A stretch of 64,000 bases of DNA from NCBI GenBank assembly GCA_945859605.1, contig OX243827.1, positions 26,739,852-26,803,851 on the forward strand, given 5' to 3'. The position numbers and the translations under genes are program-made. The notes under the pieces are model-generated. The model was given only the letters and a program-made list of their open reading frames with translations, made no database searches and had not been told where the DNA came from. The stretch comes from Lumbricus rubellus (taxonomy: Eukaryota; Annelida; Clitellata; Crassiclitellata; Lumbricidae). This document shows, in pieces, positions 8,990-59,476 of the stretch; position 1 is the stretch's first letter; each line of letters opens with the position of its first letter.

Positions 8990-9380
8990 TTAGCCAACGA
9001 ATGAAGCGTACGGTTCTGCATACTCTGAGTTACTGGTTGATGTTGGTGGCTCAAACGGTTGGGTATAAAAATGGCTGAGAATCACGGGTACTTTGTCGGC
9101 ACTCGTTGACTTCTGTTGATCTTTTTGTTGACGGTTTAGACCAGCGAAGACGACTATTTTGCCCATGTCTGTCGTCTCGCTGGTGGGTTGAATGTTGGCG
9201 TAGATCGTGCTATTGGAGGGCGTTGGGCCTTGGGTCATATCCAGTTCATCATAGACGGCGTTACCAGCTGGAGCAGCATCTTCTGGCAGGCCGTTGCCTG
9301 GAACCACGGTTGCATATGTGAAAGTTACCTCCTCACTCTCCTTAGTATTCCCCATGGGTGATGTCTCGTTTCGTCTGCCA
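8990..9380 (-). CDS. Paralog 2 exon 8, cytoplasmic tail
   Basis: Starts after acceptor ATGCAG with [11 protein letters not shown], conserved in paralogs 3 and 4, and ends at a stop at 8990. Tyrosine motifs TYATV, VYDEL, IYANI, FYTQP and EYAEP, spaced about 20 residues apart or less. Truncated relative to paralog 4 by a frameshifting deletion. Confidence 0.85.
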
Positions 9381-10704: not shown

Positions 10705-13700
10705 TCACAAACACAAATAAAACACATGCACACACTATCATACTACAATCAGATGCTGCTAATTACATGGATAGCTACGATTACTCACTATTTGCACTTT
10801 TGGAGCATAAGGACGACTGCAGCGACTACGAAAATGACCACCACAAATAAGAGGATAGAGAGAATAATTACTATTGCCATGTAGAGTTCTGCAAAGCAAT
10901 TGAAACACACCGACTGTAACGAAAGAGAGGAGCTGCAGTAGGGGTTCGTGAAATTGTATTGCAGCGTGACACAATACAGTGCACAACGATTTAATGCAAA
11001 ATTAATTGGACTACAAGATTTTTTCAACTCTCTCATATCGTCCACTTGCTATTCGATTACAGTTGTAGCATAGATTTTCACAGCGAAAGTCTTTAACCAG
11101 ATTTGATCTTCTGGTTTCTCATTCTATACAACAGCCATGGCTCAGTCCCCATGCTCCTGCTCTTTGGAATACGCTGTCACCATCTACTCGATCTCAAGTG
11201 CTAGCTGGTAACTCCTTCCTTTTTTGCGTTTCTCATAACCTATTCTTCTCTCAAGGCCTCGCTCAATGGGAGCGCCTCTAAACGAATCATGCTCTTAAAG
11301 GCGCATTATAAATGTTTTAAAACAATACTAAACAGTAATACAGTAGGCCTACACAACTAGACCTACACAAAATTTCAAAGAAGCGCTTTGATGTCGTATT
11401 CAGTGTAAGCATAAATTTTGTCTTTAGGATTTTGCATCCATAAAAAATCTTTAGCTGTTGTTAATAGAGGCATAGCTCATACTTTCTACCCCTCCCAAGA
11501 AAAACACGTAGGATTTCCCATCGAAAAAGCGGACAGATGTTGCTGTCACCATCTACTCGATCTTAAAGGCGCATTATAAATGTTTTAAAACAATACTAAA
11601 CAGTAATACAGTAGGCCTACACAACTAGACCTACACAAAATTTCAAAGAAGCGCTTTGATGTCGTATTCAGTGTAAGCATAAATTTTGTCTTTAGGATTT
11701 TGCATTCATGATAAAAGAATTACCTGACGGCTTCTGAATCAAGGATAGAGTTGAATCAGTCTTACTAGAAGTATCTCCAGCAGTTTCGTCAGTTATAATT
11801 GTGATGATGGTGCGAGTAGTGGGATTGGCTTTTGTGGTTGAACTCTGTGTCGTCGTTTTTGTTGTTGAATCAGTCTTCATGGAAATATCTCCAGCTGAAA
11901 ACATAGTTAGAAATTCGCATTATCATCAACGGAATAGAATAGCTGACTGTTCAGTGAAGGACAAAAGTTATTGCTCACGAAATAAAAACTGACTATAATA
12001 GCCAGGCCCGCCGAGAGGGGGCAGGGGTGCAACTACCCAGGGGTGCGGCGACTTTTATGGGCCCGGTTGGGGCCCGGGCTACACTGGTTCTAATAGGTTT
12101 CATAATGTTGATTGCGGATGGCGGGCCAAAGCTATAATCACTTAATATGTGAACTTTACATAGGTTGTATAATGTCAATTTGTAGCTCAGCGTAAGACTT
12201 TACCGAAGAGATCCTAGGCATTTTGCCAATCAGTGAAAAATTCGATGAACCGTAATAATAAGAAATAATAGAATGAAATATTAGCGGACAGTTCTAACAA
12301 GTGCTTGCAGTGTGAAGACTGAGATACAGGCACAACCAACTGATGACTTAGTCCGTAAGTTGTAACTATACTCCAATGTAGGAGCTTAAATCAAGACTTG
12401 AAAACATAATTATTGAAAAGCATCAAATATTCGGCGGACAGAGTTTTGGTCAGATTAATTAAGATATCTGAATCTCGTGGTAGCCTATTATAGCACGATC
12501 TGTACGAGGCGTAGGCCTATAACATGGCGATCTACAATCAGATGGGCAGGGTGGTGAAGGCTCTCACGCGATCAATTCATGGAAAATAGAAGCTGTCGAG
12601 GACACACGGGCAATAGCACGGTAGGCACAGCACAGGAGAACGTTAAATGGCGTAACACTAATTCAACCGGATAGCGACGGTGAAGAATCTCACCCGATCA
12701 ATAAAAAAGAAAATAATAATAATAATTAATAGTTAATAATAATAAGTTAATAATTAGTAATAATAATAAATTAATAACCATGGGCCCAGTGAATGCTGAG
12801 GGCCTGGTCTTTATATCTGCATTGGGACAGGCACTCAGCACAATGAATGATGATGCACGCGAGACCTCATACCTACATCAGCGCATCAGTATTATGATCC
12901 AGCGATTCAATGCGGTTGCATTCCGCGGTGCCTTTACAGCACAGGATCTCAACGACGATTAGGTGCCGTTCCATATGTTTTCATTCTGTTCTTAATTAAT
13001 ATTTAAGTCCCTGATGGATCCTAAATACGTCGGGGCATTAAAAAATTAATAATTAACAATAATAATAAATAATAAATAATAATAATACATAAAATAATAT
13101 ATTAATAATTAATAATTAATAATAATAATAAATAATAATAATATATAAAAATAATTATTCAAGCCGTAGTACACACCTTTTTGACAGACAATGGCACAAC
13201 TGTTGCTGCAGTTGCAAGTCCGCCATTTCCGGTCATTTTCACAGGTAGGTTGGTTGTTTACGTTCCCGCATCGCGGGTTAATGCAAATGCATTGTTTATA
13301 AAAAGAGTCGTCGGGATAACCACCTTCCCAGTTGGTGTAAGTAATCGCAGCACCTGATAATGCAGAACAAAAATATCACGGGAGAGTCCTTGAAGGCCGT
13401 TTTAACAGCGTTTTTCTTTCGTTCTGTTTCGTTTCAATACTGAGTCAGAAGGCCTACGGTAATGTCGATTTCTCGTCCGCGGAGAACTGAACATCAAGAA
13501 AGGAGTAGAATCGTTAACGTGAAAGAGCATACAAAAAGCATTCACGTAACTTTACTGCGTCATTCTTGTGTAGTTGTATTGCACTTCATTGTTCTAATAC
13601 TCCTTTATTCCGAAAAAGATGGATTGGTCGAAGGTTATGAGGGCGGACAACGCGAAAGAAAAAAGATGAATAATATTATTTGACAAAAATAATGATTCAC

Positions 13701-14905
13701 AATTTCTATACATGTCTTAGAACTAATAATTGATTAGGCTAAATCAAGAAAAACGTATGAGGAAGAATCGAAACTTACGATAAGTATTAAGCGGAAGTGG
13801 TAGTAAACTATGAGTAGGTTTAATGAATTTTCTAATGATATCGGCTCATCAATCAGCTGATATCACAGGAATGTAGCAGGTTCATTAGCCTATAACCTTC
13901 AGTATAATAACATGTGTGTTATTTCTATGGTGTAAAATATATTACATCACCTGTGCTATTCCAGGTCCATTTATTTCGGTGAAGTCCAATCCAATATCTC
14001 GTGTTTTCTTCAGGCCGCCACACATTCCCTATCATTTTGAGATCTGTGACAGAAGCCAGGTCTCCTCCCACACGTAAGCATTCATTTCTGGCCTCATACC
14101 AAGTGACCTTGTCTCCACTTGCGACGTAAAACATGCCTTTATATTGGAAACTATGGCGTGATATCGACTCTGTAAAGCGGTTAAAATTCAAATTAACTCG
14201 CAAACGGAAATCTACATCCAGTTTCCCTAAAGTCTTGGACATACAATATATATATATATCTTCTTGTCCTTCCGGCTGGAATTAATCCCTCGCAGGGGAG
14301 GGGTCAGCCACTCAGATCAGTTTTAACATGTGATCCATTGAAAAAAGTGAAGCAAGTGTTTCACAGGCCGGATGCCCTTCCTGACGCCCAACACTAATTT
14401 CGGGGGTGACCCTAGCCTTTCAAGTTTAGTCGATCGTTTTGACAGAGGTTAGGGTCAAGACAGGGTGTCATTTTGAGTACATATAGTATAGAATAAAGCC
14501 GGTTTTGCAACCCTGAGAAAATGAAATGTTAAACAGATACAGAAAGAAATAGCAATATCATCCAAAATGTCAGTAATAATAAAAGTAGGTAGAGAGTCTA
14601 GGTCACCTGATTTAAAATTATCTGATGAAAAAAACTGAGCGAAGATCCGAGTCCAAAATAAATGTCGTAAGCTACCGAGGATAAATGTCGTTGAGGTGAA
14701 GGTAGATATAGAAGTATAGTAGCCTAGTAGTAATAGCAGTAATAGTAGTAGTAGTAGTAGTAGTCGTAGTAGTAGTAGTAGTAGTTGTAGTAGTGGTAGT
14801 AGTGGTAGTGGTAGTGGTGGTGGTAGTGGTAGTAGTAGTGGTAGTGGTTGTGGTAGTGGTAGTGGTAGTGGTAGTGGTAGTGGTAGTAGTAGTAGTAGTA
14901 GTAGT

Positions 14906-14977
<72 letters not shown>

Positions 14978-15023: not shown

Positions 15024-15055
<32 letters not shown>

Positions 15056-18000
15056 CAGCAGCAGCAGCAGCAACTATTACTACTACTGCTATTGCTAGAA
15101 AAGAGCACGACCTTAGCACTTTAAGCCCGTGGAGCGAACCCGAACAGCAGCTAAGACTTTCTCGACCTGGGAAGTGCCATGTATGTCATTCCTGACATGA
15201 CACCGTGAATAACCATTAGGGCAATCCTGTAGACAGGTGACGGTGTTGCGACTTCCCAATTTTTCCTCGGCTATGAGCATCACACGTGATATTTGGTGAT
15301 GTTTAGATCCAGATTGTTCCGAATTGCCTCTGTTTTGCTGCGAAACAAGAATCTATAGGCCTACAATCTTAGCATGCAATAGCAGATAACAATAGCAAGA
15401 TACGACTACGCAAATGCACCTGCGTATTCGCATATGAAACCGTGAAGTGCCCAGGAGCCATCAAAGCAGAAGGTCACAGGTTGTCCACGTTTCGATTCCA
15501 CGCATGCTCCATCTTGAAGTTCGGTGGCATTCTTTGTGGCATCTAAACAATACGAAATGTCTGTTGGCAAATGATGATGGCAACGTATTATAGTTTTTAA
15601 AATAACTATTAAAAAAGAACTGTTTGGCCGAAAATTGCGTCTGAGATTCAACTTGCTACGGTACTCAATCATCAATGTAGTTTGCTCTCTGCGTGAAACA
15701 TAGCGAGTAGGCTCGTCACTTAAGAAGATAATTATAGAATCTATTTATCAGACCTTTTCGACCGAAGTTGCTACTCTAAGATATAATTAAAATATGAAAA
15801 GGCAATTCTGTGCATTTCCAATGCTTGACTGATCCAACAAGTAGGCTATATTGAATGCGAATACAAAATAATATCGAGATGTAGGCAAAAAATTGTTTGA
15901 AATTAAAGTTCCGTTTTCAGTTTTCTCAGTTTTCTTCCTCACGAATTATACTTTAACTTCTTTAAGTCGTCTTCCATTGATATAATTACTATAATAACAA
16001 TACCAAACTCCCTGCACATGGAATTGCTTGCGTACCAATGCACCAGTGAGTTGAAAAGGCAATTTTGTCAGGTAGCCTACTTCTGATTAAGCCTGTTCAA
16101 ACTGACCATTTCTAAATATTCTTAACTTCACTTAGATCTCTAAGCAGAGCTTAATTGCTCGTATTCGTATCAACGGAATTATTCGTGTGAGATAAGCTTA
16201 CGAATATTCAGTTGAGTTCTAAAAGAAACTTTATTTGTCATCAACTGTTTGTATGTATTAAGTGTTGCTTTTCAAACGTACGGGCAAGGCCCCAATATTG
16301 AAACCATAAAATGAGGATTCTGTTATTTCTCGTTACACGTAACTTGCAGCACATACCGTTTGGTAATGTTGCGTGACCATTCACCCATGACCATTTCAGA
16401 CTTTCACTTGTCGAGAGCTTTCGTGCTCCGATGACGATTTCAGCATTTGCCAATAATTGTATTCCTATGAACACGTTGACAACTCCTTTGCTTTCTATGC
16501 TATCAACAACGATCAAAGAGGAACCTGGAACACGCACTTTGCACCAGTCACTTGCTACATTGAAAGGCTGACGCACTGGGTGACTTTGGTTGGCACGAAA
16601 TGTCATAAAGCAAGTCTTTCCAGTGCTTGTGTTGTAGCATTGTGACGCACTTATGTCGGTGTTTGTATTGCGGCATTCCGCCACTTCCAGTGACTGCCAC
16701 AAACCTACATGAATGTAGATTATGTCAACACTTAACACAGAATATAAAAAAAATCATTAAACAAGCCAACCGACTAAATAGGTCAAATAAATAGAAAGTC
16801 AGCTAAGTAGGGGAACAAAAATGACAGACGGTTAAAGAAATAGGTCAATTAAATGGGACAGCAAGCATCCCGTCTGTGTGTTTGTATGTGCACTTGTTAT
16901 AGCGCCCCTTCAAGCTCTCCCTACTCAGAGGCGCTCCCGATGCAGAGCGGACACTGCATCGGAGTTTCACGCTGAAGCGCTGAGCAATAATAGTGAGTGA
17001 AGGACTTGCCCAAGGTCCTTACGCGGCCAGGTCGATTCGAACCTCGAACCTTCCGGCTCGAAGGCAACGACGCCACCACTACACCACCGCGCCCCACAAG
17101 CGGACATTACTTTGCACTCCAAGTAATCGTCATAGAATCAAATTCAGACAATCAATGTAAATTCTATTCCCATGCATGTATCAAATGATAGCCTTGGTCG
17201 GAGCTTGACCCGTCATAATTGTCCCGTCAAACAGCCCTGTCAAAACAGCCAAAAACAAAATAGCCCCGTCATAATAGCCCACCGACAAAACAGCCCAGTA
17301 AAAATTGGCGGGGTTGTTTTGTCGGTGGGCGATTAAGACGGGGGTTGTTTAGACCGTCTATTTTGACGGGGTGCCGGCATGCAGGAGGATCTAATATGAC
17401 TGTTCTTCCTTCTCTATACCATTTGAATAAACCCAACATTATGATTATGATTTCTTATTCTTAACGGATATCATTCAGTGCATTTCAATTAGACGCTTGT
17501 TATGAAATACAGTAAGCTTATTCGATTAGCAAAGTTGAACTCTGCTGTAGTGTAAAGGTAGCGACTGCATATTCTGCACAGGTAGCATAAAGCAGCCTTA
17601 TTCGACCCAACTCAATAGCTGACTTTATACTGGAAAAGAGAGAAAATTAGGCCTAAAGAGCAGCGAAAATAAAACTTATACATTCGATTTTATGACCACT
17701 CTTGGTCGGTCCATCTTTCTGGGCTAGTTAGCTATGGAATCCTCACTATTGAACCTTCAGAAAAAATAATTCTCTAACGTTGTATACGTATTTCCGCTTC
17801 ATGTGGTAGAGTAATTAAAGGTCGCTAATATGCAAGTTACTATAGACCGCTACTAGTGATCTAAAACTTTAAACTCCATTAGAAAGCCAAGCGCTGGGTA
17901 CCAGTTTATTCACGAGCACTGACGCAGTCTGCAGATTGGTGCCCACTACAGCGCAAAACATCAAGTTCATTTTATTCGTTAATTAGCCTAGATCTATGAT

Positions 18001-18060
18001 ATTTTGAGAGAAACATGTTCACTTACCAGTAAGAAGGCTTACAAACAGCATCCGAAACAT
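8990..18060 (-). CDS. Receptor paralog 2: complete dual-CTLD type I receptor with tyrosine-motif tail
   Basis: Eight exons: 18027-18060, 16357-16704, 15420-15542, 13951-14169, 13177-13353, 11724-11894, 10789-10888 and 8990-9380. Every junction has GT and AG ends and matching phase (six phase-1 introns, one phase-2), giving an open 520-residue protein. Order: signal peptide (1-11), CTLD1 (12-168), CTLD2 (169-300), Thr-rich stalk (301-357), membrane segment (358-390), cytoplasmic tail (391-520). Neither CTLD shows the EPN/QPD plus WND calcium/sugar motifs, so ligand binding may be of the protein-binding, NK-receptor kind. Tail motifs include TYATV, VYDEL, IYANI, FYTQP and YAEP; TIYANI fits the ITSM pattern TxYxxI. 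The membrane segment ends in LQKCK rather than the basic RKRK of paralogs 3 and 4. Structure is seen; inhibitory signalling is inferred. Confidence 0.85.
9381..10276. other. Intron of paralog 2 before the tail exon
   Basis: No supported gene. The reading frame over 9945-10394 is partly copied in inverted orientation at 11443-11544, has no recognisable domain and is treated as non-coding. Confidence 0.4.
10277..10378. repeat. Source or copy of a 102-bp inverted duplication
   Basis: The reverse complement of this stretch recurs at 11443-11544 with no mismatch seen by eye, about 1.1 kb away in the same gene and on the other side of the membrane exon. Confidence 0.85.
10627..10702. repeat. (AC)n microsatellite
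   Basis: Two long AC runs separated by ATTC interruptions. His/Thr and Val/Cys reading frames across it are artefacts of the repeat. Confidence 0.95.
10789..10888 (-). CDS. Paralog 2 exon 7, transmembrane segment
   Basis: 100 nt between acceptor TTGCAG and donor GTGAGT, phase 1 to phase 2. Encodes LYMAIVIILSILLFVVVIF and a further hydrophobic stretch ending LMLQKCK. Single-pass membrane anchor; the stop-transfer end is less basic than in paralogs 3 and 4. Confidence 0.85.
11098..11330 (+). mobile_element. CR1/L2-like LINE 3' fragment
   Basis: Matches the 3' end of the LINE at 4541-6107: shared CAGATTTGA, ATGGCTCAGTC, CTCTTTGGAAT, the hairpin TGGGAGCGCCTCTAAACG and GCGCATTATAAATG. No intact coding frame. 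Confidence 0.75.
11293..11705. repeat. 145-bp direct duplication flanking an inverted 102-bp copy
   Basis: 11293-11437 and 11561-11705 are the same 145-bp sequence, offset by 268 bp. Between them lie the inverted copy of 10277-10378 and a second copy of GCTGTCACCATCTACTCGAT (first at 11173, second at 11542). Confidence 0.85.
11443..11544. repeat. Inverted copy of 10277-10378
   Basis: Reverse complement of the 102-bp segment at 10277-10378, sandwiched between the two 145-bp direct repeats. Confidence 0.85.
11724..11894 (-). CDS. Paralog 2 exon 6, Thr-rich stalk
   Basis: 57 codons rich in Thr and Ser, between acceptor TTTCAG and donor GTAATT. GDISMKTDST and GDTSSKTDST show an internal duplication. 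Probable O-glycosylated spacer. One copy of a 145-bp direct repeat ends 19 bp before (left of) this exon's lower coordinate. Confidence 0.8.
12705..13150. repeat. AAT-rich low-complexity blocks
   Basis: Stretches of AATAAT/AATTAAT at 12707-12780 and 13040-13155, inside the intron between the CTLD2 second half and the stalk of paralog 2. The short frame at 12780-12962 between them shows no known domain. Confidence 0.7.
13177..13353 (-). CDS. Paralog 2 exon 5, second half of CTLD2
   Basis: 177 nt between acceptor TATCAG and donor GTGTGT, phase 1-1. Reads [12 protein letters not shown] then KQCICI and ends RTCNCSNSCAIVCQK. YPDD replaces the EPN/QPD sugar motif and no WND triplet is present. Confidence 0.9.
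13951..14169 (-). CDS. Paralog 2 exon 4, first half of CTLD2
   Basis: 219 nt between acceptor TTTACAG and donor GTGATG, phase 1-1. Contains TWYEARNECLRVGGDLASVT and [17 protein letters not shown], the classic CTLD helix and WIGL signatures. Confidence 0.9.
14263..14480. repeat. Probable interspersed-repeat fragment
   Basis: Contains CCGGATGCCCTTCCTGACGC and CTCGCAGGGGAGGGGTCAGC, wording typical of 3' ends of widely dispersed animal non-LTR repeats. Family not assigned; only one copy is in this window. Confidence 0.4.
14727..15075. repeat. Large (TAG)n trinucleotide array
   Basis: About 350 bp of TAG repeats with TGG and TTG variants and a CAG tail, in the intron between the two CTLDs of paralog 2. 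Leu, Tyr or Thr homopolymer frames across it are artefacts. Confidence 0.95.
15420..15542 (-). CDS. Paralog 2 exon 3, second half of CTLD1
   Basis: 123 nt between acceptor GTTTAG and donor GTGCAT, phase 1-1. Contains [15 protein letters not shown] and the terminal CTLD signature FICEYA. Confidence 0.9.
16357..16704 (-). CDS. Paralog 2 exon 2, first half of CTLD1
   Basis: 348 nt between acceptor ATGTAG and donor GTATGT, phase 1-1. Contains [35 protein letters not shown] and WSWVNGHATLPN. Four cysteines precede those of the next exon. Confidence 0.9.
16880..17100 (-). repeat. Full-length tRNA-derived SINE
   Basis: On the minus strand: A box region GGGGCGCGGTGGTGTAGTGG, B box GAGGTTCGAATCGACC, then a tRNA-unrelated body, then the 3' end GGGAGCGCCTCTGAGTAG followed by CTTGAAGGGGCGCTATAAC. 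That 3' end matches the LINEs at 22770 and 29342. It lies in intron 1 of paralog 2. Confidence 0.85.
17213..17375. repeat. Inverted-repeat element, MITE-like
   Basis: GCCCACCGACAAAACAGCCC and GGGTTGTTTTGTCGGTGGGC face each other across a short loop, and outer CCCGTCATAAT/TTTTGACGGGG sequences extend the fold. No target duplication identified. Confidence 0.65.
18027..18060 (-). CDS. Paralog 2 exon 1, signal peptide
   Basis: MFRMLFVSLLTG, donor GTAAGT, phase 1. The conserved upstream region supports this ATG. Confidence 0.8.
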
Positions 18061-21811: not shown

Positions 21812-22082
21812 TTATTTTTGGTCTTTCTTTTGAATGTCTAGGTCGGCGTAGACGACGCTTTTGCCTATGTCAATTGTGTCGGTGGTGGGTTGAACGCTGG
21901 CGTAGATGACGTTGTTGTAAGGCGCTGGCCTTTGGATCATATCCACTTCAGCATAGATGGTGTTACCAGCTGGAGTAGTTACTTCAGACGGTCTGTTACC
22001 TGGAACCACGGTTGCATATTCGGAAGTGACTGCATCACTCTGCTTTAAATTCCCCATGGGTGATGTCTCGTTTTGTCTGTTA
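21812..22082 (-). CDS. Paralog 3 exon 8, cytoplasmic tail
   Basis: Opens after acceptor TGTAG with [11 protein letters not shown]. Contains four motifs: EYATV, IYAEV, IYASV and VYADL. Ends KKDQK and a stop where paralogs 2 and 4 continue with YxxP motifs. Confidence 0.85.
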
Positions 22083-40488: not shown

Positions 40489-40533
<45 letters not shown>

Positions 40534-49500: not shown

Positions 49501-52500
49501 TAAAGATGCTGAAAACGATGCCGATGAACTATGGAAACTGACAGTGGTATTAACAGAAAGAGGGACAGATGAGGTGAAATCTTTTGATGTCGAGGGTAGC
49601 AGTTCTCCAGTAACAACTGTTGTGACAGCGCCAGAAGCTTTTTCTTCTGAAAAGTGTAAGACATTAGTGTTATCATCCATGGAGTAAGTCAACTGACATG
49701 ATGTCTAATTTCTATCCAACTTGAATTGATCTTAATCGGACTGGTTGGGAATTAGCTAATTCCTTAAAGGAACACGACGCTTGTTCAGTGGTCATATTAA
49801 ACTATCCAGATATATTATAGGCCTGCACGACGAATTACAATGAATAAAATAATGACACCGGTATATACCAAGAATGGGCCTAATGGTGGCACATCAATAA
49901 TATTATAGCTCACCCAGAGTCTACACTGCCAAAACTCTGAATGCCTAATATTTTCCTGTGAATCTTACTTAAACTTTTCCCTAACAACCTTAGGTCACGC
50001 GATTCAATTTGTGATATGCATCCCGTTATTCGATCCACATGGTTTGGTTAAAACTGTGACAAACGATTTGTCCTGTACTAGCCAATTCGTCATACCGTAC
50101 TCGTCAACGCTTATAAATTTTAGCTGAAATCCCCCGTATAAAGTTTTAAATGGCATGCGTCTTTATTAAAACAGAACCACCTCTTTGGAAACTAATATTA
50201 CACGTATAATGCCGCTGTACTGGTACTGAAATTAAGCTTCTTCTTTTTCTTCTTTAGGTTCTCTGCCAAGCGGCATGTCCAAACGTCCAATGTGAAATTC
50301 AGCTAAGGCAAAATACTTTGCGCTTTCATAGCTCGGCTCTTTCAGAAACAAAAGTTTTCTACATAAAAAAATCTTGATCTGGTCGAAAGTTTAACAACTA
50401 GACAACTTCAAAGCAGTGATCGGCAAACTTGCTATAGTTGTGAAATTAAGTATCAACGTACACTTTTAAAAATTAGGTGAATATGATAGCCAGGTTAACT
50501 GCATGAGCAAGAGTCATGTAGGCCTACATGTCCCATACGCATCTTTGTATGCGGCCACTGGTGAATGCCTATGAATGCTGGCTAATTTAAGAGATTTTAA
50601 TCTCATGCCTGAACGATATGTACAAGGGGGATCCATTCAAACATTGGTCGGTGGTGAAGAATCAAACTCGGCTAGACCACTGAAAAATAAAACGCATCAA
50701 TGTTACAGAGTCGCCATTAGCACCGCGCGCACACGATGACTTGACATGTCTTGGTGATCAACCAGACTTGTAGCGGTAGTGAAAGATAGGTCTATCACCC
50801 GTTAAATTAATGGCAAATGGAACATTTAAAGGCAACGCAGCTATCTGCACGGCATAGTCTAACGTGAAAGTGCACGTAAACATTTAGCCTATAACGAACT
50901 AATCTGTAGAACACACCTTTTTGACAGACAATGGCGTAACTGGTGTTGCAGCTGCAAGTCCTCCATTTACGGTCCACATCACTTACACTACAATCAAGCC
51001 TGCATTGTGGTTTAATGCAAATGCATTGTGTGTCAGGAGCTTCATCGGGATAACCACCTGCCCAATTGGTATATGTGATTGCAGCACCTAATTACAAACA
51101 AAAGAAACATCAAGAAAGTCTTAGAAGATCGCTTTTACCGCCTGTTACATAGTTTCGCTATGTTTTGTATTATTATTCGGAATGGGAGTAATTTATGTAA
51201 CACAAGACTTAAGCTTATCCTCTCAATTGCTTACCATTCCTTTCTTAACAAGCGGTTCTTCTACACACTGACCTATATAATTGGTTTAGTGCTCCAATGA
51301 CCTGTATCGCCCAATGTGCACACAGCACGGGAGGGACTAAGGTCTAAGGTAAGGTCTCCAATGATTTGATGATTCTACATTTCACACGGCGTTCAAATAA
51401 TCGTTCCAACTTCTATTTGAGCAAGAACTATGCTTCGCAGATCCAACTTCCATTTTGGAAAGAACTTGTTTCATCATTCCAACTTCTATTTAAGCAAAAA
51501 CTACGTTTTTCATCCAATTTCCGCTAAAAACGATATTTTTCACCAAAAATTCTTTTTAAGCTATGAACTCTTTCCATCAAACCTACTTCCATTTCAGTAA
51601 AACATATTTTTCATTAGTCCCGCTTTCACGTTACAAGAATTCTTTTCATCAATCTATTTTTACTCAATCACCGCTGGACGAATCGTAAGTAATAAGCAAT
51701 ATTATTAGTAAATTTTAAGTAAATCAATTCAGTTAAATGTTGGCATGTCCATGAATATGCTAGATGAAGGCTACAGGAATGTTTCAGGTCCGTTGATTCA
51801 AGGGTATGACTATGAAAATACATGACCACACCTGTACTGCTCCAATTCCATTTATTTCGGTGAAGTCCAATCCAATATCTTTGGTTGATTGTTAGCCGTG
51901 ACTGAACAGATGTAATCGCATTGAGATCCGTGATAGAGGCCAAGTCTCGTCCCAAACGTAAGCATTCCTTTCGAGCATCGTACCAAGTGGCAAGATCTGA
52001 TCTTGCGTAGTAACTCGTGCCATTTGGTAGGCGAGCTGATTTCGATAACGTAAATATAGCAGTCAAAGTTAAATTAACTCCAGAACAAAAATTCAAAGAC
52101 ATTTCGAGTTGATTTTAAAAGAGCTCAGTGTGATCTAGCATCTCTCTTGATCTTATAATTATATGCCTATTAGCCTATAGGCTAGTTTAGCACGCATGGT
52201 AATAATAATAAAAAATAAAAAAATTATTTTCGTTAATGATGCCTGCAAGACGCACTGCGCTTTACATTTACAAATTATGCAGTAATCTTAATTAAACTTA
52301 ACTACATGTACTAATTGAACAGACAGCTTTACAATTACATGGCGCTAATAGCAGCCTACAAAGCAAATCCGCCCAACGGAGGCTCGAACTCGCTACCTCT
52401 CGCACTCTATGCCAGCGTGTTATCCATTGCACTACCGAACCCCCGCACATAGGGGCAAGACGGGGCACTTGCCCCTCTTGAAAATTTGCGCCCATTTTTA

Positions 52501-55500
52501 AAACTACTTTTTTGGGAGTTTTGGTGAATTTTTTTAATAAAATCATCAATGATGCATCTTTAGAGCGAAAATGAAACATGTGGAAACACACATGTTCTTA
52601 ATTTCCTGCTTTACATCTGCCAATTTTCTGCTTTCATATTTCAAAATAATTTATTAATATGAACCACACTGAGCTGTTGCAAATATTTGTACCGTGACCA
52701 TTGTGTTTTGCCCTTCCTGTACACATTTCTGCGGGCGCCCATGGCATCAAATGTACCAAACTTTAAGCCTATAAAAAATTATCAGATTCCAGTAGCCTTT
52801 CACTTGCGCCTTTCTTACATCCAAATAAAAACCAATGTTTCGATATCCGTGTTTGGCGCTTCATGTGATATTTTAATTTTCATTTCTGACTTCCAAACCA
52901 ACCGAGGACTTCGCATTTTAGGGCAGCTAACTTTTTACTCTGATTTATTAATAACACATTCACGCAGGGAAATGTAACATGCGTAACTTGTAAAATCTTG
53001 AAACATAGTATGAGCTAGTTCGTCTTCTTTTTCTTTGGTTCTCTGCCGTCAGGCAGGTTCATACACATGTATGTCCAATGACGCCACGCATATCTGTTCT
53101 GTCTTTAGCCCTCTGTAACCGTCCTTTGTCATCATCCAGTCCAGTAGCATTGTTCTTGGTCTTCCTCTTGGCTTTTCCCCCTCCATTCTTCCTTCCATTA
53201 TATCTCGTACTATGATGTCACTCCTCATGATGTGGCCAATCCAGTTTCTCTGTCGCCTCCGTATTGTCTCCCACCATCTGCAGAGCTGTATTAGTATTAT
53301 AATCTAACATACGAATTCGTAAATGCACCTTCGCATATGTAGCCAAGCCGGGATGTAACGTTATCAAAACAGTAGATCAGTGAATGCTGATTCTTCGATT
53401 CCACACACGCTCCGTCGTAAATCTCTGCGGCTTTATAATTTTATATAACATCAAAATTACACAAAAATGTTTGCTAGCAAATGACGATGGCGATGTATTG
53501 TTTGAAAAGTTACTTTTCAAAATTGACGGTCAGGCAGAAACCTGCGCTTGAGATTTATGTGTCATAAGCTTATAGTTATGGATCCTGTAAATATCATGCA
53601 CCATGTCGTGAAATAGCATCAAATAGGCTATGATTCTAAATGAATTTACTTGAAGCACACAATCTATCAGTGGTCTCAAACGCAAGTCATCAAGAGGACC
53701 ACATTTAGAAATTTTCAAAGGTTTGCGGGTCGCAACATAAAAATAGACTAGGGCCTATATCATGCACCAAAATTATTTACATAGATTTATATCATTACAG
53801 AATACAACAACGTAGTAGTATTATAATCCGTTATAATTTACATAATATTATAGATTTTTAATGTAGCCTAGCTCATATAGTACCGTAGGCCTACTACAAG
53901 CAAAATTGAAAACGCAGGGCCACAATACAATAAAACTGCAATTTGATAATGCCCTTATTACAAGGTTCATATAATATGCAGTTCAGAACCATTAGGCTAA
54001 GAACTACACAATAGGTAAACGTGAAAGGAAATTTTTCGGTTTAGAGCAAAAGACAATCTCGTTATTAGAGAATTAGAATGACAGAAGACGGAAGTAAAAA
54101 ATAATTATTATCCCATAGGACCGGATCTAGTAACATGAAACAATTAACAGTTCATACCAGACTTTCGAAGTGATCTTTGATTTCCTTCATTATTTCTGCG
54201 CCCAAACATGATTTCTTCCAGCTTAAGTCCTGCATCGATACCGTATCTTATTAAAAAACCGACACTGGCATAAACCAGTAGGCCTAGTTCCCATTATTAT
54301 TAGATCTATTCTAAAGGTAAGTTCATATCAATTCCAATGCGACCATCAACCATGATTGCTATTAAAACATGATTGCTATTAAAACACTCTTATCACTCTT
54401 GGTTTTGGCCGCAGATTGTGGTATTTCTCCGGCATAGCTCTCCACATTTGATAATCTATCGGGTAAAAATCCGGCGATTAAAGAACTATTGGTACTTCTC
54501 AATGAAACCAGAACAATAATACTAATGTTTAGCCTTTCTCCTTTCATCAACGGCATATTTCTTAACTTTCAATTTAACTCGTAATTTCTCCCCGCTCTCT
54601 CTGTTCATCGGAGTAGATGGTGATTAGCCTACAGCTTGAGATTCAAGGCCCTGCTCATGAAGTATCTTAATAAGCTTTCACATTAAATTTTGTCTGTCAT
54701 TGAAGCCTTGGCCATTTTAATGTCTCGTAAATTTCAATTTTGCTGTTTTAATAGCAAAATTTGAATCTGAAGAATTCTTTATTTGCAACTTCATAGTCAT
54801 CTTACCAAATGATGTCACAGTGACTTGCAGCCACGCTGATACATGTGTCTTTTCTAAATAGTAACAATAATGATTATACGGCAATATGTAGTTCATTGAC
54901 ATCAATTATTTGAGATTGTACTTAATAAAATCTTTTCTTTTTTGTTACTTTTTTACTTTTTGGATTGCTAAAAACAGTGGGTGGGCTCACTAAAAATGAT
55001 ATAACTTTTGTTCTGCTTCAAATATTTTTGATGATATTTGCCCTGAGATATGAGTTACCTTTAAGCCCGTTAAACCTATGGAATGTTTTTGCCAAGATAT
55101 TGACAAACCTCCGTAGGGTATTACTCTTTTAGAGCCGCCCTGTATTTACGCCTAGCTCTATTCTACTCCATTCTATTTACCGATTCATCAATCAATCAAA
55201 ATTATTTTTTGATCCCACAAAACGTAATTTAACAGAACATGTTATAACACAATTATAATTAAAGTTTTAGCACATTCGGCAAAGAGGTTAGGATACAGAT
55301 TAGGGAGCAATAGGCACACCAGAAGGGACAAGTCCCGCTTAGTAGGGACTTATATACCAGGTAGAAGTAGAACATGATGGCGGGGTGAGATTAATTTAAG
55401 TAAGGGAAATACACGTTATTATGTCTATAATAACAGTTATAATAGTAGAAGTTACGTAAAGATGCAGATTAAATTCTTAACTAAAACTTAACTAACAAAC

Positions 55501-55627: not shown

Positions 55628-58600
55628 ACGTGCACGTGCACGTGCACGTGCACGTGCAAGGGTTTTAAAGTGGCTAACGGATGTAACCGTACGGATGTCT
55701 TTGGGAAGACTGTTCCAGTTGGCAGGGCCCTGAACCCTAAGCGAAAACTTACGGACATTAGTTCTTGCAAACACAGATCTGAAGTCATTGTTACTTCTAG
55801 TGAAATAAGATGCGGTGCAGGATCAAAATAGGATGAGAATAATGATGGGAGGAGGTTATTGATGTATTTATACACGAAGATGCAAGTTTGGAGGAATTTG
55901 ATTTGATTAATGTCTAGAAGTTGATGTTCAAAGAATAGTGGACTCGTGTGTGAATTGGGGGAAGATTTAGTTATGACTCGTATTGTCTTTTTTGAAGGAT
56001 CTTTAGGCCTATACCTTTAAGATTGGAGTCATATGTCGAAGTCCAGATCATGCTGCAGTAAGTCAGATATGGATATATGATGGTATAATAAAGATCCCGT
56101 AGAATATGAGGGGGGAGAAGGTAGGACAGCCTACTCTTTTTATAATGCCAAGATTCTTCTTGATTTTGTTACTAATTTCAAAAATGTGTGTTTTCCATTT
56201 CAGGTGTTGATCAATGTAGACACCTAGAAATTTTGTTGAGGATACTTGAGTAATAGTAATGTTATTTAGAGCTATTTGGCTAACGTTGTTGGGGATGGAT
56301 TGTCTTGTGGAGCAAAAAATGATACAGTTGGATTTGTTTACATTAAGTGATAATTTGTTGCTTATAAACCATTCGCTAGCGGATGTTAGTTCATTGTTCA
56401 CCAGTTGTATTAAACTGTCGTATGACGTATGAGATAAGAAGACATTGGAGTCATCTGCAAACATAATGAAGTGTGGGACAGTATAGAAGAGTTTGGCAGA
56501 TCGTTAATGAATAATAACAAATAAGAGTGGACCAAGAATTTATCCTTGTGGTACTCCAAATGCAATGGGCAAATCCTAAAAATTTCTCTTACAAGGTAGT
56601 AAATCAGAAGACAGAGATTTTGCTATTCCAGTTAAATAAGAGTTAAAGTGATCAGCCATCATATTGGGGTCATGGATCATGACGCCATTTAGGCTACCTT
56701 GATTTCGAGAATAGACGTATCTATTTTATCAGTTTTGACAACGGTTTTAATTATCTGCCAAGTCTATTTTATATCTCTACTGTATTTCAAAAATTCGTTA
56801 GTGTAATATGATTGTTCAAGTTTGGTGAGTATTACTTTATAGTGATTACGATATTTCGTAAAGATAGGCCTATTTTTGTTTTCAATCGTGGGATTCTTTA
56901 TATATTTAATCTAAAGTTTTTCTTTCTTTTTTTATAGATTTTAATAGTCCCGGAGTCATCCATGGTTGAAGAAATGAATTTTTCTTAGAGACCTTCTGCG
57001 ATTTGATGGGGGATGGATTTATCATAGCAAATTTTGATATTTTTTGTGAATAAATTAAAGGCTTCATTGGTTTGTCAGGTTGTCATAAAGCGATTCTCAC
57101 AGTGCAAACTAATAATAGGCTCCCCCGGTGCTAGGAACTCTTGCAAAAGAAAAGTTTTTAAACGAACAGCAGAAATAGTAGTGCTCCAAGATAATAGCTC
57201 AGCACGAGTTAGGCCTATTAAGCTTATATAAAATAATCAGGAAGGTTATCCCACAGCAAAAGGGCTAACACAGGATAAGGCACGATGCTGTACTGTGGCA
57301 GTCGGAGACCGTTGTACGGTACTACATGCAGAAGAACATGACTTTCTAAAGAGCGGAGAGGACGTTCAGTGGTAGCTGAGATAGGCCGTGAACACATTTT
57401 GTAGATACAATACAATACAATACAATTTATTATTTATGACGCGCTTTAACAAGACAAGTCTTGCACAAAAGCGCGCGGCCTGCGATGTTAACAGTCGCTA
57501 CAGCAGACAAAGTCATCTGAAAGTAATAACGCAACCAAAAATAACACGAGTCACAAGCGAATGAACTCCGATGAAGACATAAGATTAGACCTACAGCCGA
57601 AAAGCTTCTCGTAAGTTGAGTTTAGGATCAAAATAATTATTACTGTCCCTGCTTGGTGGTCGAAGCAAAGAACAGAGAACAGCAACGAGCAAAACTATCG
57701 CAAAACACGTACCAGGTAGCACCGCAACGGTACAATCCTCGCTAGAAGACAATAAATGAAGCATAAAATCCTTCTTTCGTCTCATCGTCTCATTCGTGTA
57801 GTATGCGAGTCCGGTAATTTTGAATCGCAATCTGGGGTATATGATGGTATTGTGATCAAACCGGGCATCCCTTGTGGAAGACGAAGTAGACCCGTCCAAT
57901 GATGAACGCCTGATATAGATCTATGCTTAATTTTATGTAATTTTTATTTGTATTGAGTTTTAAAAACTATTTGAACGTTTACGAATAAACGATGAGATTA
58001 TAAAATGATGATTCTGGTGTTTTATTTCAAAGTTAACTCGCAACACAGAGGACTTACCATTTGATACCATTGGGTGACCATTGACCCATGACCATTTCCG
58101 ACTTTCACTTGCCGAGAGCTTTCGTGCGTTGATGACGATTGTCTCATTCGCTAATACTTCTCTTCCTATGAAAATGTCGACAGTTCTCTGGTTTTCCAGG
58201 CTGTTAATGACCATCAAAGAGGAACCTGGAACATTCACGTTGCAAAATTTACTTGCTTTTTTGAAAGGCTGACGCACTGGGCGACTGTTGTTAACAAGAA
58301 ATGTTGTAAAGCAAGTCTTTCCAGTACTTGTGTTGTAGCAATGTGACACGTTTATGTCGGTTTGTATGTTGCGGCATTGAGCCACTTCCAGTGACTGCCA
58401 CAAACCTACATGGACAAAAATTAGGTCAGCACTTATGACAAAAATCACAAATCAATTGCACAATGAGATCTAGTTTTAAAAATCCATACAGCGAAAAGTT
58501 GTTTTGAAGATGCTGATAGCACCTCGTCATATGATCGTTTTACTTCGCGAGCAAGCCAATCATTAGCCTATACTCAGATTCAGACTTACGATGCAAATTC

Positions 58601-59476
58601 TTTTCTCATCTGTGCCTGGAATATTGGTCTCAGCACATGACTTTGACAGAAATATCTAAGATAATTATACTTCCTTCTTATAGCCAGTTGGATGAACCCC
58701 CATATAATTTTATTGCGGATCTTATCCAGTGCATTTCAAGAAGAAAAATCGTGATTTGGTGTTGTCAGTAAGACTTTCTCTTGTTCTGGCGCTATATCGA
58801 TTCTGATTAAATTACGAAGATGATTCTTTTTCTTGTCGGTTCTCTCTGTTGGTTCTAAGCTGCCTACAGCGGAAAATGAAACTTAGAAAAAAGGAGATGT
58901 GAGCAACCAACCGTTGTTTACAGAGACCTAGAAAATCGAATCGTAATCGTGAATTTATAAAGCGAACCCTCAAAGTCGGTTACAACCTGACAGCACCAAG
59001 TCACAACAAAAAAGAATGATTTTCAAACGCTTGCGGGAAATTGGCAAAGAAGACCAAGAAGCTCATTACGGAGACTACTTGGTAACTTATTCCAGAATAT
59101 GGACCGACCATAGCGAAGCTTTTATGCAGCATGCACACATTGCACAGTGGAGGTTCGAGCCACAGGGTAAAGGAGATTTCCAACGTTGTGTAGGTCTGTT
59201 TACTCCCGGTGGAAGCGTTATAGAAGCCTGATGAAAAATGGCGCTATGACCTAAAAATGACCTAGCAACTGCTGGTTATCGAAAACTTAAAACTCCTAAC
59301 GCGCCACTAGGAAGCGAAACGCAGGACATTAGTTTATTCACGAGCGCTGATGAAGCCGGCAGATAGGTAGGCCTACATTACTTGCACAATACAAATAGTT
59401 CCTTGTAGCTAAAATATGAGATACATGAACATGTTCACCTACCAGCGAGAAGGCTTACAAACAGCAACCGAAACAT
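37688..59476 (-). CDS. Receptor paralog 4: dual-CTLD receptor with the longest stalk and tail, damaged splice sites
   Basis: Exons: 59443-59476, 58058-58405, 53329-53430 (damaged), 51832-52035, 50917-51087, 49185-49646, 48735-48843 and 37688-38177. If all are used the frame gives 639 residues; skipping the third, symmetrical exon gives 605. CTLD1 is about 12-161, CTLD2 162-286, Ser/Thr-rich stalk 287-440, membrane segment 441-476 ending RKRK, tail 477-639. Tail motifs: EYAAV, IYADL, IYASV, IYSEP, EYAEP, YYNI, VYSLA and a last IYSEP. Two ancestral acceptors (third and fourth exons) have changed and probably moved. The third intron region is about 4.6 kb, and the last intron holds the 10-kb Polinton. 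Still plausible as a gene, perhaps with altered splicing; a decaying gene is possible. Confidence 0.7.
38447..38452. repeat. Left target-site duplication of the Polinton
   Basis: TTTGGT, identical to 48570-48575 on the other side of the element. Six base pairs is the length expected for Polintons. Confidence 0.9.
38453..39138 (+). repeat. Left terminal inverted repeat of the Polinton
   Basis: 686 bp matching 47884-48569 in reverse complement. I saw one mismatch, C at 39059 versus A in the other copy. The outer end has two near-identical 24-25 bp units with GACTGTTGTAACTGAAACAA. The middle has three related units with CACCCACCAACGCTTGCGG. Reading frames inside it are mirrored in both repeats and not treated as genes. 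Confidence 0.95.
39216..39926 (+). CDS. Polinton-borne protein with two PC4-like single-stranded-DNA-binding domains
   Basis: Two exons, 39216-39263 and 39405-39926, with donor GTGAGT and acceptor TTGTAG in phase 0, giving about 189 residues. The first domain shows NGRYLTAAIFKDEIMVHIRE followed by the PTKKGASF block and a Trp-containing helix, the arrangement of PC4/p15 transcriptional coactivators. A second, more diverged repeat follows: GGRYYVSINNQFKCVNIRRY, then RPTRSGIALRLEEWDLLL. PC4 normally has one domain and dimerises on single-stranded DNA; two in one chain suggest a built-in dimer. The C-terminus has CKLC. A role in element replication or transcription is inferred. No assigned gene name. 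Confidence 0.7.
40040..40240. repeat. Imperfect direct repeat downstream of the PC4-like gene
   Basis: Two copies about 130 bp apart of a segment ending AAAAAATATTTTTGTCACG, preceded by similar GTCAATTTATAAAATTT-like text. Confidence 0.5.
40318..40580 (+). repeat. Full-length tRNA-derived SINE inside the Polinton
   Basis: A box in GGCGCGGTGGTGTAGTGG, B box GAGGTTCGAATCC, body GGACCTTGGGCAAGTCCTTC, core AACTCCGATGCAGTGTCCGC and 3' GGGAGCGCTTCTGAGTAG. The usual 3' hairpin is replaced by a (GA)n run at 40493-40530. It inserted after, or was carried with, the Polinton. Confidence 0.85.
40581..42573. other. Polinton interior with no recognised gene
   Basis: No integrase, ATPase, protease or capsid motif seen in either strand. 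A plus frame at 41419-41676 (85 codons from a GTG, including HNEKRWNKHRDRFHHVLR) and a minus frame at 41629-41928 overlap; neither has a known domain. 42320-42390 has two copies of a 35-bp unit containing GACGTTCGACAATCTTxCCA. Confidence 0.5.
42574..45885 (-). pseudogene. Polymerase exon 8: exonuclease and polymerase domains with internal frameshift
   Basis: Begins after acceptor TTTTAG with the residues VKWYIASDFAFER. Open to a stop at 43140. The downstream frame starts with an overlapping ATGA at 43143 and carries LLFTDTDSLCYHI, then runs to 42574. No intron signals flank the switch and no classic slippery heptamer is present, so a small deletion is the simplest explanation. Confidence 0.85.
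46000..46318 (-). CDS. Polymerase exon 7: cysteine-rich zinc-binding segment
   Basis: Pairs CRYC, CQIC, CSMC and CITC give eight cysteines, suggesting two zinc sites, followed by an Arg/Ser-rich stretch. Acceptor TTTTAAG, donor GTATGT. Confidence 0.8.
46476..46613 (-). CDS. Polymerase exon 6: charged linker with basic patch
   Basis: Reads EARRLERGKAPAPKRRVEED then an acidic and Ser-rich stretch. PKRR could act as a nuclear localisation signal. Acceptor TTCCAG, donor GTAAGC. Confidence 0.75.
46740..46859 (-). CDS. Polymerase exon 5: acidic repeat
   Basis: Reads GIISDSELQSATDELDRRWG then LRSDEELSRQQ. Acceptor CTATAG, donor GTACGA, phase 1. Confidence 0.75.
   Translation of the reverse strand: MLSMESYPILNFNQPRTNWIVVGVSDRMKNYHDNKILRI
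47008..47106 (-). CDS. Polymerase exon 4: acidic repeat
   Basis: 99 nt. Reads TDSSDDELLQNATSYEQEEA then SKLDRGKTL. Acceptor TTCAG, donor GTGAGT. Confidence 0.75.
   Translation of the reverse strand, partial: YGEIPIHRMTNCCRMQHPTSRKKLRNWIVEKP
47228..47326 (-). CDS. Polymerase exon 3: acidic repeat
   Basis: 99 nt, the same length as exon 4 and clearly related: AESSDDELLRITTNIEQHEA then KKLDPAQTL. Acceptor TTCAG, donor GTAATT. Confidence 0.75.
47513..47635 (-). CDS. Polymerase exon 2: acidic segment
   Basis: Reads TDDFITDSQFDELFRFCAPI then a Glu/Asp-rich end. Acceptor TATAG, donor GTATTT. Confidence 0.7.
47730..47748 (-). CDS. Polymerase exon 1: start codon
   Basis: MDNMDF then a split Tyr codon at donor GTAAGT. 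It lies 136 bp inside the right terminal repeat, leaving a short promoter region between. Confidence 0.6.
47884..48569 (-). repeat. Right terminal inverted repeat of the Polinton
   Basis: Reverse complement of 38453-39138 over 686 bp with one visible difference. Ends CAACTACT next to the duplication TTTGGT. Confidence 0.95.
48570..48575. repeat. Right target-site duplication of the Polinton
   Basis: TTTGGT, identical to 38447-38452. Confidence 0.9.
48735..48843 (-). CDS. Paralog 4 exon 7, transmembrane segment
   Basis: 109 nt between acceptor TTGTAG and donor GTAAGT. Encodes ILLTLLFVVAFIFIIIAVLL then VIRKRK. The Polinton ends 165 bp downstream. Confidence 0.85.
49185..49646 (-). CDS. Paralog 4 exon 6, long Ser/Thr-rich stalk
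   Basis: 154 codons between acceptor TTTCAG and donor GTGGTT, very rich in Ser, Thr and Pro. Much longer than in paralogs 2 (57) and 3 (96). Mucin-like spacer. Confidence 0.8.
50225..50290 (-). repeat. Short LINE-like 3' fragment
   Basis: TTCTTTAGGTTCTCTGCC matches, with small changes, the start of the fragment at 53028-53290 (CTTTGGTTCTCTGCCGTC), so probably the 3' end of the same element. Confidence 0.4.
50917..51087 (-). CDS. Paralog 4 exon 5, second half of CTLD2
   Basis: 171 nt between acceptor ATTAG and donor GTGTGT, open. Contains YTNWAGGYPDEAPDTQCICI and ends RTCSCNTSYAIVCQK. Confidence 0.85.
51832..52035 (-). CDS. Paralog 4 exon 4, first half of CTLD2, shifted acceptor
   Basis: Contains ATWYDARKECLRLGRDLASI and [17 protein letters not shown], donor GTGTGG. 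The acceptor aligned with the other copies (TTTACAG) reads TTTACG here; an AG 15 nt further in (AAATCAG) keeps phase 1 and is the likely replacement, giving 204 nt instead of 219. Confidence 0.75.
52305..52442 (-). repeat. tRNA-derived SINE, second family
   Basis: Minus strand: A-box-like TAGTGCAATGGATAACACG, B box GAGTTCGAGCC, then TTTGTAGGCTGCTATTAGCG shared with the copy at 7085-7320. In the intron upstream of exon 4 of paralog 4. Confidence 0.65.
53028..53290 (-). mobile_element. LINE 3' fragment (endonuclease/RT C-terminal region)
   Basis: The minus strand reads RRQRNWIGHIMRSDIIVRDI then KPRGRPRT, the conserved C-terminal wording of another class of non-LTR retrotransposon proteins. No reverse-transcriptase core present. 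Confidence 0.65.
53329..53430 (-). pseudogene. Paralog 4 exon 3, second half of CTLD1, damaged
   Basis: The core [22 protein letters not shown] and LGYICE is open and followed by donor GTGCAT. At the ancestral start, however, the acceptor reads TTTTG instead of TTTAG and the fourth codon is TAA. A weak AAAG at 53431-53432 could serve, in phase 1, without a pyrimidine tract. The exon is phase-symmetrical, so skipping it keeps the frame but halves CTLD1. Confidence 0.65.
53431..55530. other. Intron of paralog 4, no gene seen
   Basis: AT-rich; short frames (for example 54362-54556) have no recognisable domain. No repeat family assigned. Confidence 0.4.
55531..56575 (-). mobile_element. LINE reverse-transcriptase fragment, degraded
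   Basis: Minus strand: GVPQG followed by a stop and GPLLF (about 56530-56560), active-site FADD in MFADDSNVFLS (about 56464), SNKLSLNVNKSNCIIF and STKFLGVYIDQHLKW. Frames change towards the 3' end, which terminates in the microsatellite. The 5' limit may extend past 56700. Confidence 0.75.
55533..55660. repeat. (TG)n microsatellite with CACGTG repeats
   Basis: Long TG run followed by five tandem CACGTG-type hexamers (GCACGTGCACGTGCACGTG). Val/Cys and His/Thr frames are artefacts. Confidence 0.95.
57405..57490 (-). repeat. Retroposon 3' end with hairpin and ATTGT tail
   Basis: Minus strand: GCGCGCTTTTGTGCAAGACT, TTGTTAAAGCGCGTC, then a (TTGTA)n tail. The inverted GCGC arms resemble the 3' hairpins of the LINEs in this window. 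Confidence 0.5.
57591..57899 (-). CDS. Uncertain reading frame in an intron of paralog 4
   Basis: Open for 102 codons with a hydrophobic stretch (CFAIVLLVAVLCSLL) followed by a charged end. No recognised domain, no paralogous copy in the other three genes, and a retroposon 3' end directly downstream. It could be a retroposon remnant or chance. Confidence 0.15.
   Translation of the reverse strand: MDGSTSSSTRDARFDHNTIIYPRLRFKITGLAYYTNETMRRKKDFMLHLLSSSEDCTVAVLPGTCFAIVLLVAVLCSLLRPPSRDSNNYFDPKLNLREAFRL
58058..58405 (-). CDS. Paralog 4 exon 2, first half of CTLD1
   Basis: 348 nt between acceptor ATGTAG and donor GTAAGT, phase 1-1. Contains [44 protein letters not shown] and [11 protein letters not shown]. 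Confidence 0.9.
59443..59476 (-). CDS. Paralog 4 exon 1, signal peptide
   Basis: [12 protein letters not shown], donor GTAGGT, phase 1. Confidence 0.8.

Follow-up and report, generated by a model that had tools for sequence, protein, structure and literature searches.

A tandem cluster of about 20 putative type I receptor genes with lectin-like heads and tyrosine-motif tails in Lumbricus rubellus

The window analyzed here, a stretch of 64,000 nucleotides of Lumbricus rubellus DNA, sits in contig C20 of an assembly of 787 Mb in 368 contigs. A sequence-only reading had placed at least three complete genes and one partial gene in one orientation in this window. Rebuilt exon models confirmed three complete genes, called A, B, and C, plus the first exons of another, gene D, all on the minus strand, and the coordinates and domain order of the earlier reading proved correct. 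Each complete gene consists of 8 exons (A, 59476-37688; B, 33929-21812; C, 18060-8990), which encode, in this order, a signal peptide (exon 1), the first head (exons 2 and 3), the second head (exons 4 and 5), a stalk rich in Ser and Thr (exon 6), a membrane span (exon 7), and a tail (exon 8). The modeled proteins have lengths of 637 aa (A), 517 aa (B), and 520 aa (C), and their heads and tails share 54-64% identity over the aligned residues. The splice junctions, said to be phase-consistent between copies, were so: GT-AG borders were present in 21/21 introns of the three genes, and in each gene introns 1 to 6 are in phase 1 and intron 7 is in phase 2.

In gene A, the signal peptide exon, which has counterparts in B, C, and D, was placed at 59443..59476 by the gene model. 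The N-terminal part of the putative first CTLD is encoded by exon 2 (58058..58405; model, genome matches, and a 14-copy profile) and its C-terminal part by exon 3 (53329..53424), and the two parts of the second CTLD are encoded by exon 4 (51832..52035; Pfam) and exon 5 (50917..51087; model and Pfam). Exon 6 (49185..49646) specifies a stalk of 154 aa with 40% S+T, exon 7 (48735..48843; model and hydropathy) the membrane span followed by RKRK, and exon 8 (37688..38177) a tail with the motifs SEYAAV, NPIYADL, NPIYASV, IYSEP, YAEP, and IYSEP. Exons 1 to 5 of genes B and C have identical lengths of 34, 348, 123, 219, and 177 nt, and those of gene A measure 34, 348, 96, 204, and 171 nt. The acceptors used in B and C are altered at exons 3 and 4 of gene A, and nearby AGs are needed instead, which shortens exon 3 to 96 nt versus 123 and exon 4 to 204 nt versus 219 and makes the exact splicing of gene A uncertain.

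Gene B follows the same plan, with the signal peptide at 33896..33929 (model and similarity), the two parts of the first CTLD at 33264..33611 (model and genome matches) and 32267..32389 (model), those of the second CTLD at 30417..30635 and 28124..28300 (both model and Pfam), the stalk at 27197..27484 (model), the span at 26750..26843 (model and hydropathy), and the tail at 21812..22082, where SEYATV, TIYAEV, VIYASV, and VVYADL are found. In the case of gene C, the corresponding exons lie at 18027..18060 (signal peptide; model and similarity), 16357..16704 (model and genome matches) and 15420..15542 (model) for the first CTLD, 13951..14169 and 13177..13353 for the second (both model and Pfam), 11724..11894 for the stalk of 57 aa, 10789..10888 for the span (model and hydropathy), and 8990..9380 for the tail with YATV, YDEL, TIYANI, YTQP, and YAEP. 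Compared with the tail of gene A, that of B ends early and the end of that of C is frameshifted. Gene D is represented by its signal peptide exon at 3215..3248 (model and similarity) and by exon 2, the N-terminal part of the first CTLD, at 1222..1581 (360 nt; genome matches); no exons of gene D beyond these two were found inside the window.

The family forms a tandem cluster of about 20 copies, far bigger than the share of it that lies in the window. When the whole genome was searched at E≤0.001, the first-head exon of gene B gave at least 18 matches, all within C20:26.489-26.798 Mb. Twelve of these 18 were on the minus strand and six on the plus strand, and none contained an internal stop. 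The tail exon of gene A gave at least 21 matches, again all in one region (C20:26.418-26.778 Mb), and 18 of the 21 were free of internal stops. Together, the head- and tail-exon matches occupy one 380-kb stretch, C20:26.418-26.798 Mb. No relative was found among viral contigs (probed with exon 2), genome contigs (probed with the second head), or phages (probed with part of exon 2). The CpG observed/expected ratio was 0.87.

The cluster was read in 24 overlapping 10-kb tiles plus small pieces, which together cover it except for ~26.676-26.685 Mb, the greater part of 26.7195-26.7398 Mb, and the bulk of the sequence left of 26.476 Mb. For a survey of exon order, exons from the window served as probes (head-1a, head-1b, head-2a, head-2b, span, and tail). 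All six probes matched in order in 12 copies, namely, g1 to g6, g12, g13, g16, A, B, and C, with the match to the first head exon of g3 beginning only at residue 25. Five copies were partial (g10, g11, g14, g15, and D) and another two to three units were seen as fragments only; we ascribe this incompleteness to missing exons that were unfetched, undetected, or diverged. Signal-peptide exons were recognized by similarity in A, B, C, D, and g15, and by the less strict combination of hydropathy and splice phase, partly by eye, in g1 to g6, g13, and g16. For g10, g11, g12, and g14, no convincing signal-peptide exon was found. The tail exon follows the membrane exon not only in A, B, and C but also in nine further copies (g1 to g6, g12, g13, and g16). 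The possibility that the tail exon belongs to an unrelated gene, named as a risk in the sequence-only reading, was addressed at the genomic level and rejected, as all of the genome matches found for this exon (at least 21) lie in the cluster.

Besides the tail exons in complete copies, extra tail exons for which no head was recognized were observed at C20:26550214-26550604 (+), 26708415-26708601 (-), 26720690 (-), and 26418471 and 26441838 (both +). The first two adjoin the complete genes g4 and g16, respectively. These head-less exons are possibly alternative tails or relics. A probable tail of gene D, assigned by position, lies outside the window at C20:26730918-26731109 and carries the ITSM-like motif TTYAEV three times in tandem, and therefore the number of motifs may grow via short internal duplication.

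The proposed type I topology, with an N-terminal hydrophobic exon and a C-terminal span and tail, was borne out by the models. Hydropathy was high over the 12 N-terminal residues of A, B, and C and peaked in the predicted span, which is followed by basic residues; gene C has an additional, weaker hydrophobic stretch in the first head. Signal, span, and basic edge as predicted from these proteins fit a type I topology. A mucin-like stalk had also been claimed, and a Ser/Thr-rich exon does lie between head and span. Such an exon with the right phases was present in 11 of 12 copies tested (not in g1), compared with one of 12, of 30 aa, on the opposite strand. Upstream of exon 6 of gene B there is an exon-like stretch which resembles the start of the stalk of A and contains an in-frame stop. 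The idea that this stop deprives gene B of a stalk was considered and rejected, as a phase-compatible exon is available from 27484, as in C. Over the span and tail, Pfam reported TMEM154 for all three genes with 17.4-21.8 bits, below the cut-off of 30.3, which probably reflects composition.

Two CTLDs per protein had been proposed, and this held more firmly for the second head than for the first. The second head belongs to PF00059 (Lectin_C): the whole proteins scored E values of 8.3e-15 (A), 1e-12 (B), and 4e-13 (C), corresponding to 55.9, 49.2, and 50.5 bits at a cut-off of 22.6, with the best stretch located in the second head. The PDB sequences nearest to it are CTLDs of Ly75, the mannose receptor, and the PLA2 receptor. 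In the case of the first head alone, the domain search that had been suggested as a check gave no Lectin_C match in any of the three genes by Pfam (0/3). When 14 copies were searched at E≤10, Lectin_C was obtained for five (best E, 5e-5), with RNase_H as runner-up in three (best E, 0.0062). A profile built from these 14 copies had 17 matches in the PDB at E≤10, 16 of which are CTLDs by name (best E, 0.0013), and both alignments shown kept the CTLD register. Based on the Lectin_C matches among the 14 copies and the PDB matches of the profile, we strongly infer that the first head is a divergent CTLD, short of proof.

Smaller samples of the first head gave less. Single-copy searches of the PDB returned one, one, and five weak matches, among which CTLDs numbered zero, zero, and two; a three-copy profile returned four matches, the best being a CTLD with an E value of 0.5 and the others non-CTLDs; and a four-copy profile of exon 2 returned seven, the top five of which were CTLDs with E values of 0.098-0.26. 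The first-head profile did not match the second-head profile. A structure prediction, likewise suggested as a check, was run on exon 2 alone and did not give a confident fold, with a pLDDT of 35.1 with 4 rows and 42.9 with 17 rows. Foldseek, queried with the latter model (pLDDT 42.9), listed 54 structures at E≤10, none of which reached E≤0.001. A classical Ca-dependent sugar-binding CTLD contains EPN or QPD plus WND. EPN, QPD, and WND were absent from 15 first heads and 16 second heads, and because of this absence neither head is predicted to bind sugar in the classical calcium-dependent way. A reading of the family as classical sugar-binding lectins was rejected on these grounds.

The tails had been described as carrying serial YxxV/I/L motifs of ITIM/ITSM type. 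YxxV/L/I motifs are indeed present in the tails of A, B, and C, but by the stricter patterns [S/I/V/L]xYxx[I/V/L] or TxYxx[V/I] for ITIM/ITSM, the tails of A (one match) and C (one match) taken alone do not exceed shuffled tails, and only that of B (four matches) does. We therefore considered 23 tails, of which 18 were aligned and five more were read from the cluster. They contained 41 ITIM/ITSM matches, compared with a mean of 6.8 and a maximum of 15 in 2000 residue shuffles. At least one match was found in 19 of the 23 tails and at least two in 11, and four had none. The wider pattern YxxV/L/I/M occurred 75 times, with at least one occurrence in every tail. A feature absent from the earlier note is the distal motif YxEP/YxQP, found at 18 sites in 10/23 tails (shuffle mean, 1.4; maximum, 7). 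NPxY was present five times in the 18 aligned tails, spread over four of them (shuffle mean, 0.6; maximum, 4). In view of the distal YxEP/YxQP and the NPxY motifs, we consider the tail composite rather than purely ITIM-like.

The alignment of 18 tails revealed a common plan of four YxxV/L/I tyrosines. Y1 is present in 17/18 tails, with V, I, or M at +3 in 15/17 and S-x-Y in 10/17. Y2 is found in 15/18 tails, with L, V, or I at +3 in 14/15, and has P at -2 in 8/15, which is not ITIM-like. For Y3 (15/17 tails) V or I follows at +3 in 15/15 and T-x-Y is seen in 7/15, and Y4 (12/15 tails) is preceded by V at -2 in 12/12 and followed by L or I at +3 in 10/12. Pairwise identity in the Y1 to Y4 columns was 0.89, 0.69, 0.77, and 0.63, compared with a mean of 0.41 for the 84 other columns. 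The tail of g12 has kept the first of the four tyrosines and lost the other three. The distance between Y3 and Y4 is 10 residues in g4, the extra tail exon of g4, and g6, versus 18 to 21 in the remaining nine tails that possess Y3 and Y4, and these three tails read YASV-x6-YxE[L/I], an ITAM-like spacing. A loose ITAM pattern (YxxL/I/V with 6 to 12 residues between) was counted, without shuffle control, in 7/18 tails, and a strict one (YxxL/I on both sides) in 1/18, the extra exon beside g16. The hemITAM-type pattern D/E-x-Y-x-x-L did not occur in any of the 23 tails.

Median pairwise dN/dS was 0.59 for the first head (105 pairs), 0.38 for the second head (120 pairs), and 0.65 for the tail (153 pairs). 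Among the A/B/C comparisons, the 95% interval included 1 in all three pairs for the tail, in two of three for the first head, and in one of three for the second head; the first heads of B and C gave 1.14 (0.71-1.95). These medians and intervals indicate that the genes are constrained overall, the first head and the tail only loosely. Positive selection is not supported by the dN/dS values. Trees of heads and tails differed in topology, mostly with weak support. Copy g2 grouped with g11 to g14 by its first head (96/92), less firmly so by its second head, and with g4 and g6 by its tail (100/100), which may hint at exon exchange.

Among vertebrates, the NK lectin receptors (Ly49 and NKG2) are clustered CTLD receptors with ITIMs whose CTLDs do not have the classical Ca site; they are type II proteins with a single CTLD and an N-terminal ITIM. 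The cluster described here resembles them in its clustering, its ITIM-type motifs, and its heads without classical Ca motifs. The contrast drawn with them in the sequence-only reading is upheld by the gene models, which predict type I proteins with two heads and serial motifs at the C terminus. The mannose-receptor family (MRC1, MRC2, Ly75, and PLA2R) has 8 to 10 CTLDs, ricin-type and FNII domains, and a short endocytic tail. It resembles the predicted proteins in having several CTLDs, and the solved sequences closest to the second CTLD belong to it. Its layout was not encountered here, since each protein has two heads, and neither ricin-type nor FNII domains were reported by Pfam for the three genes at E≤1.

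The nearest published analogues that we have seen come from oyster, in which lectins have activating tails of the hemITAM type, and from Botryllus, which has ITIM receptors of the Ig type. According to the available text of PMC13027682, oyster CgCLec-TM1 and CgCLec-HTM have a carbohydrate recognition domain, combined with a hemITAM in the former and a non-classical ITAM in the latter, and both act via Syk and are activating. Like the proteins described here, they are membrane C-type lectins with a cytoplasmic tyrosine motif; the same portions of that report describe them without a tandem family, a double head, or a serial ITIM/ITSM tail (PMC13027682). The fester co-receptors (FcoR) of Botryllus, an invertebrate chordate, are clustered type I receptors whose tails contain ITIM, hemITAM, or core YxxI/L/V motifs, and in these respects they are similar to the present family; they differ by their Ig and sushi ectodomains and their position in an allorecognition locus, and that paper makes no use of the word lectin (PMC12065747). 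As far as the excerpts of PMC8211107 report, amphioxus BbLcLRR, with YATV, YSEV, and YDDP, is inhibitory toward T-cell signaling in Jurkat cells; its binding partners are SHIP1 and, to a lesser extent, SHP1/2. Its tail is close to the YATV, YAEV, and YAEP of the cluster, but its ectodomain is of the LRR type and it is described there as a single receptor (PMC8211107). BbLcLRR is the best functional precedent we have seen for an inhibitory tail. A review notes, in general terms, that type I CLRs possess several CRDs and that ITAM or ITIM may occur in CLR tails; in the text available, it does not name any invertebrate family that combines two CTLDs with a serial ITIM/ITSM tail (PMC9505182). Large lectin repertoires are reported for bivalves, some echinoderms, and lancelets in the portions at hand of PMC10140915, and CD94-like lectins for Ciona and Botryllus in those of PMC5465252. 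In mainly open-access literature without bioRxiv, including the accessible parts of PMC5877582 and PMC9316650, we found no invertebrate family of type I dual-CTLD receptors with ITIM/ITSM tails.

While gene structure, cluster, and motif enrichment are established by the observations above, function has to be proposed. We consider it somewhat more probable than an even chance would make it that the cluster encodes ~20 tandem single-pass type I receptors with two CTLDs and a tyrosine-motif tail whose net output would most likely be inhibitory or switch-like, the inhibitory sign being predicted from the tail motifs. Such receptors would be displayed on immune or other surface cells, and their heads may contact a protein, a non-classical glycan, or another non-classical ligand. 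Src-family kinases would phosphorylate the tail tyrosines, upon which the proximal pYxxV/L/I sites could dock SHP- or SHIP-type phosphatases and the distal pYxxP sites Crk- or Nck-type adaptors. With respect to SH2 preferences, sites of the proximal type suit SHP/SHIP and pYxxP suits Crk/Nck. The copies may diverge through duplication, tail truncation, and motif repetition.

The motif YxxL/I/V doubles as an endocytic signal, and the proteins could instead be endocytic or phagocytic scavenger receptors, with heads that would bind microbes or debris and tails that would combine clathrin-adaptor (YxxL/I/V) and PTB (NPxY) signals for sorting or engulfment, signaling being secondary. YxxV/L/I/M is the most widespread feature of the tails (75 in 23/23), the five NPxY motifs in 18 tails exceed the shuffle maximum of 4 (mean, 0.6), and the chains nearest to the second CTLD, those of Ly75, the mannose receptor, and the PLA2 receptor, come from endocytic receptors. 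We regard this explanation as rather unlikely, since NPxY is restricted to 4/18 tails, four to six serial sites appear to be more than sorting requires, and neither the V at -2 of Y4 (12/12) nor the series of YxEP/YxQP is needed for it; we know of no requirement of sorting for either.

Alternatively, the family might consist of mixed paired receptors, most of them inhibitory and some activating via ITAM-like tyrosine spacing. The absence of hemITAM from all 23 tails, the single strict ITAM among 18, and the cores of the membrane spans inspected, which by eye contain no charged residue such as DAP12-type partners would need, make this very unlikely, even though the Y3-Y4 spacing of 10 residues in g4, the extra exon of g4, and g6 (18 to 21 elsewhere) and the loose ITAM pattern in 7/18 tails, a count without shuffle control, would agree with it. 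So would the extra tail exons beside g4 and g16, and because they adjoin these genes, tail swapping by splicing might occur. Several copies also show damage that would be expected if the duplicates were largely decaying and had little function left: the acceptors of exons 3 and 4 have changed in gene A, the tail of B is truncated and that of C frameshifted relative to A, g12 retains one of four tyrosines, and dN/dS is 1.14 for the first heads of B and C. General decay is nonetheless highly improbable given that 0/18 head-exon matches have internal stops, 18/21 tail matches are stop-free, and median dN/dS is below 1 for the first head, the second head, and the tail.

If the tails of these candidate receptors inhibit, as we favor, type I components with two heads would have been assembled into a big cluster of braking lectin receptors, and ITIM/ITSM logic would be attached to yet another surface architecture. 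The ~20 natural tail variants on one scaffold, which include truncated, ITAM-spaced, and motif-multiplied ones, offer suitable material for testing how the sign of a signal depends on the number and spacing of motifs. In a more far-reaching proposal, which we judge distinctly unlikely, the cluster would be a self/non-self or cell-surveillance complex with a logic like that of the Botryllus fuhc locus or the NK complex of vertebrates. In it, ligand diversity would come from the tandem CTLD receptors and braking from their serial ITIM/ITSM tails; conversion to ITAM-like spacing would have affected some plus-strand copies, and the output would be tuned through exchange or duplication of tail exons (TTYAEV three times in the probable tail of D, head-less tail exons).

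The window also contains other elements. Intron 7 of gene A harbors a 10.1-kb element (38453-48569), which we take to be Polinton-like, with terminal inverted repeats of 686 nt that are 100% complementary; given this perfect match, the element probably inserted very recently. It is flanked on both sides by TTTGGT and contains a 920-aa frame on the minus strand with the look, by eye, of a DNA polymerase B, for which Pfam gave only a sub-threshold FYVE match, as well as an ORF with a PC4 domain on the plus strand. Reverse-transcriptase-like ORFs are placed in introns and between genes, two of them matching Pfam RVT_1 (4529-5566, plus strand, and 22830-24029, minus strand) and two recognized by eye without a Pfam match (29503-30294 and 56063-56503, both minus strand). 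Rfam and ARAGORN returned no matches in the window. A TAG/CTA triplet array of 111 copies, open in several frames, occupies 14725-15055 within intron 3 of gene C. In the window as a whole there are 25 occurrences of the palindrome TAGGCCTA, compared with 0.6 expected and a largest count of 4 in 100 shuffles, and none of its occurrences falls in an exon of genes A to D.
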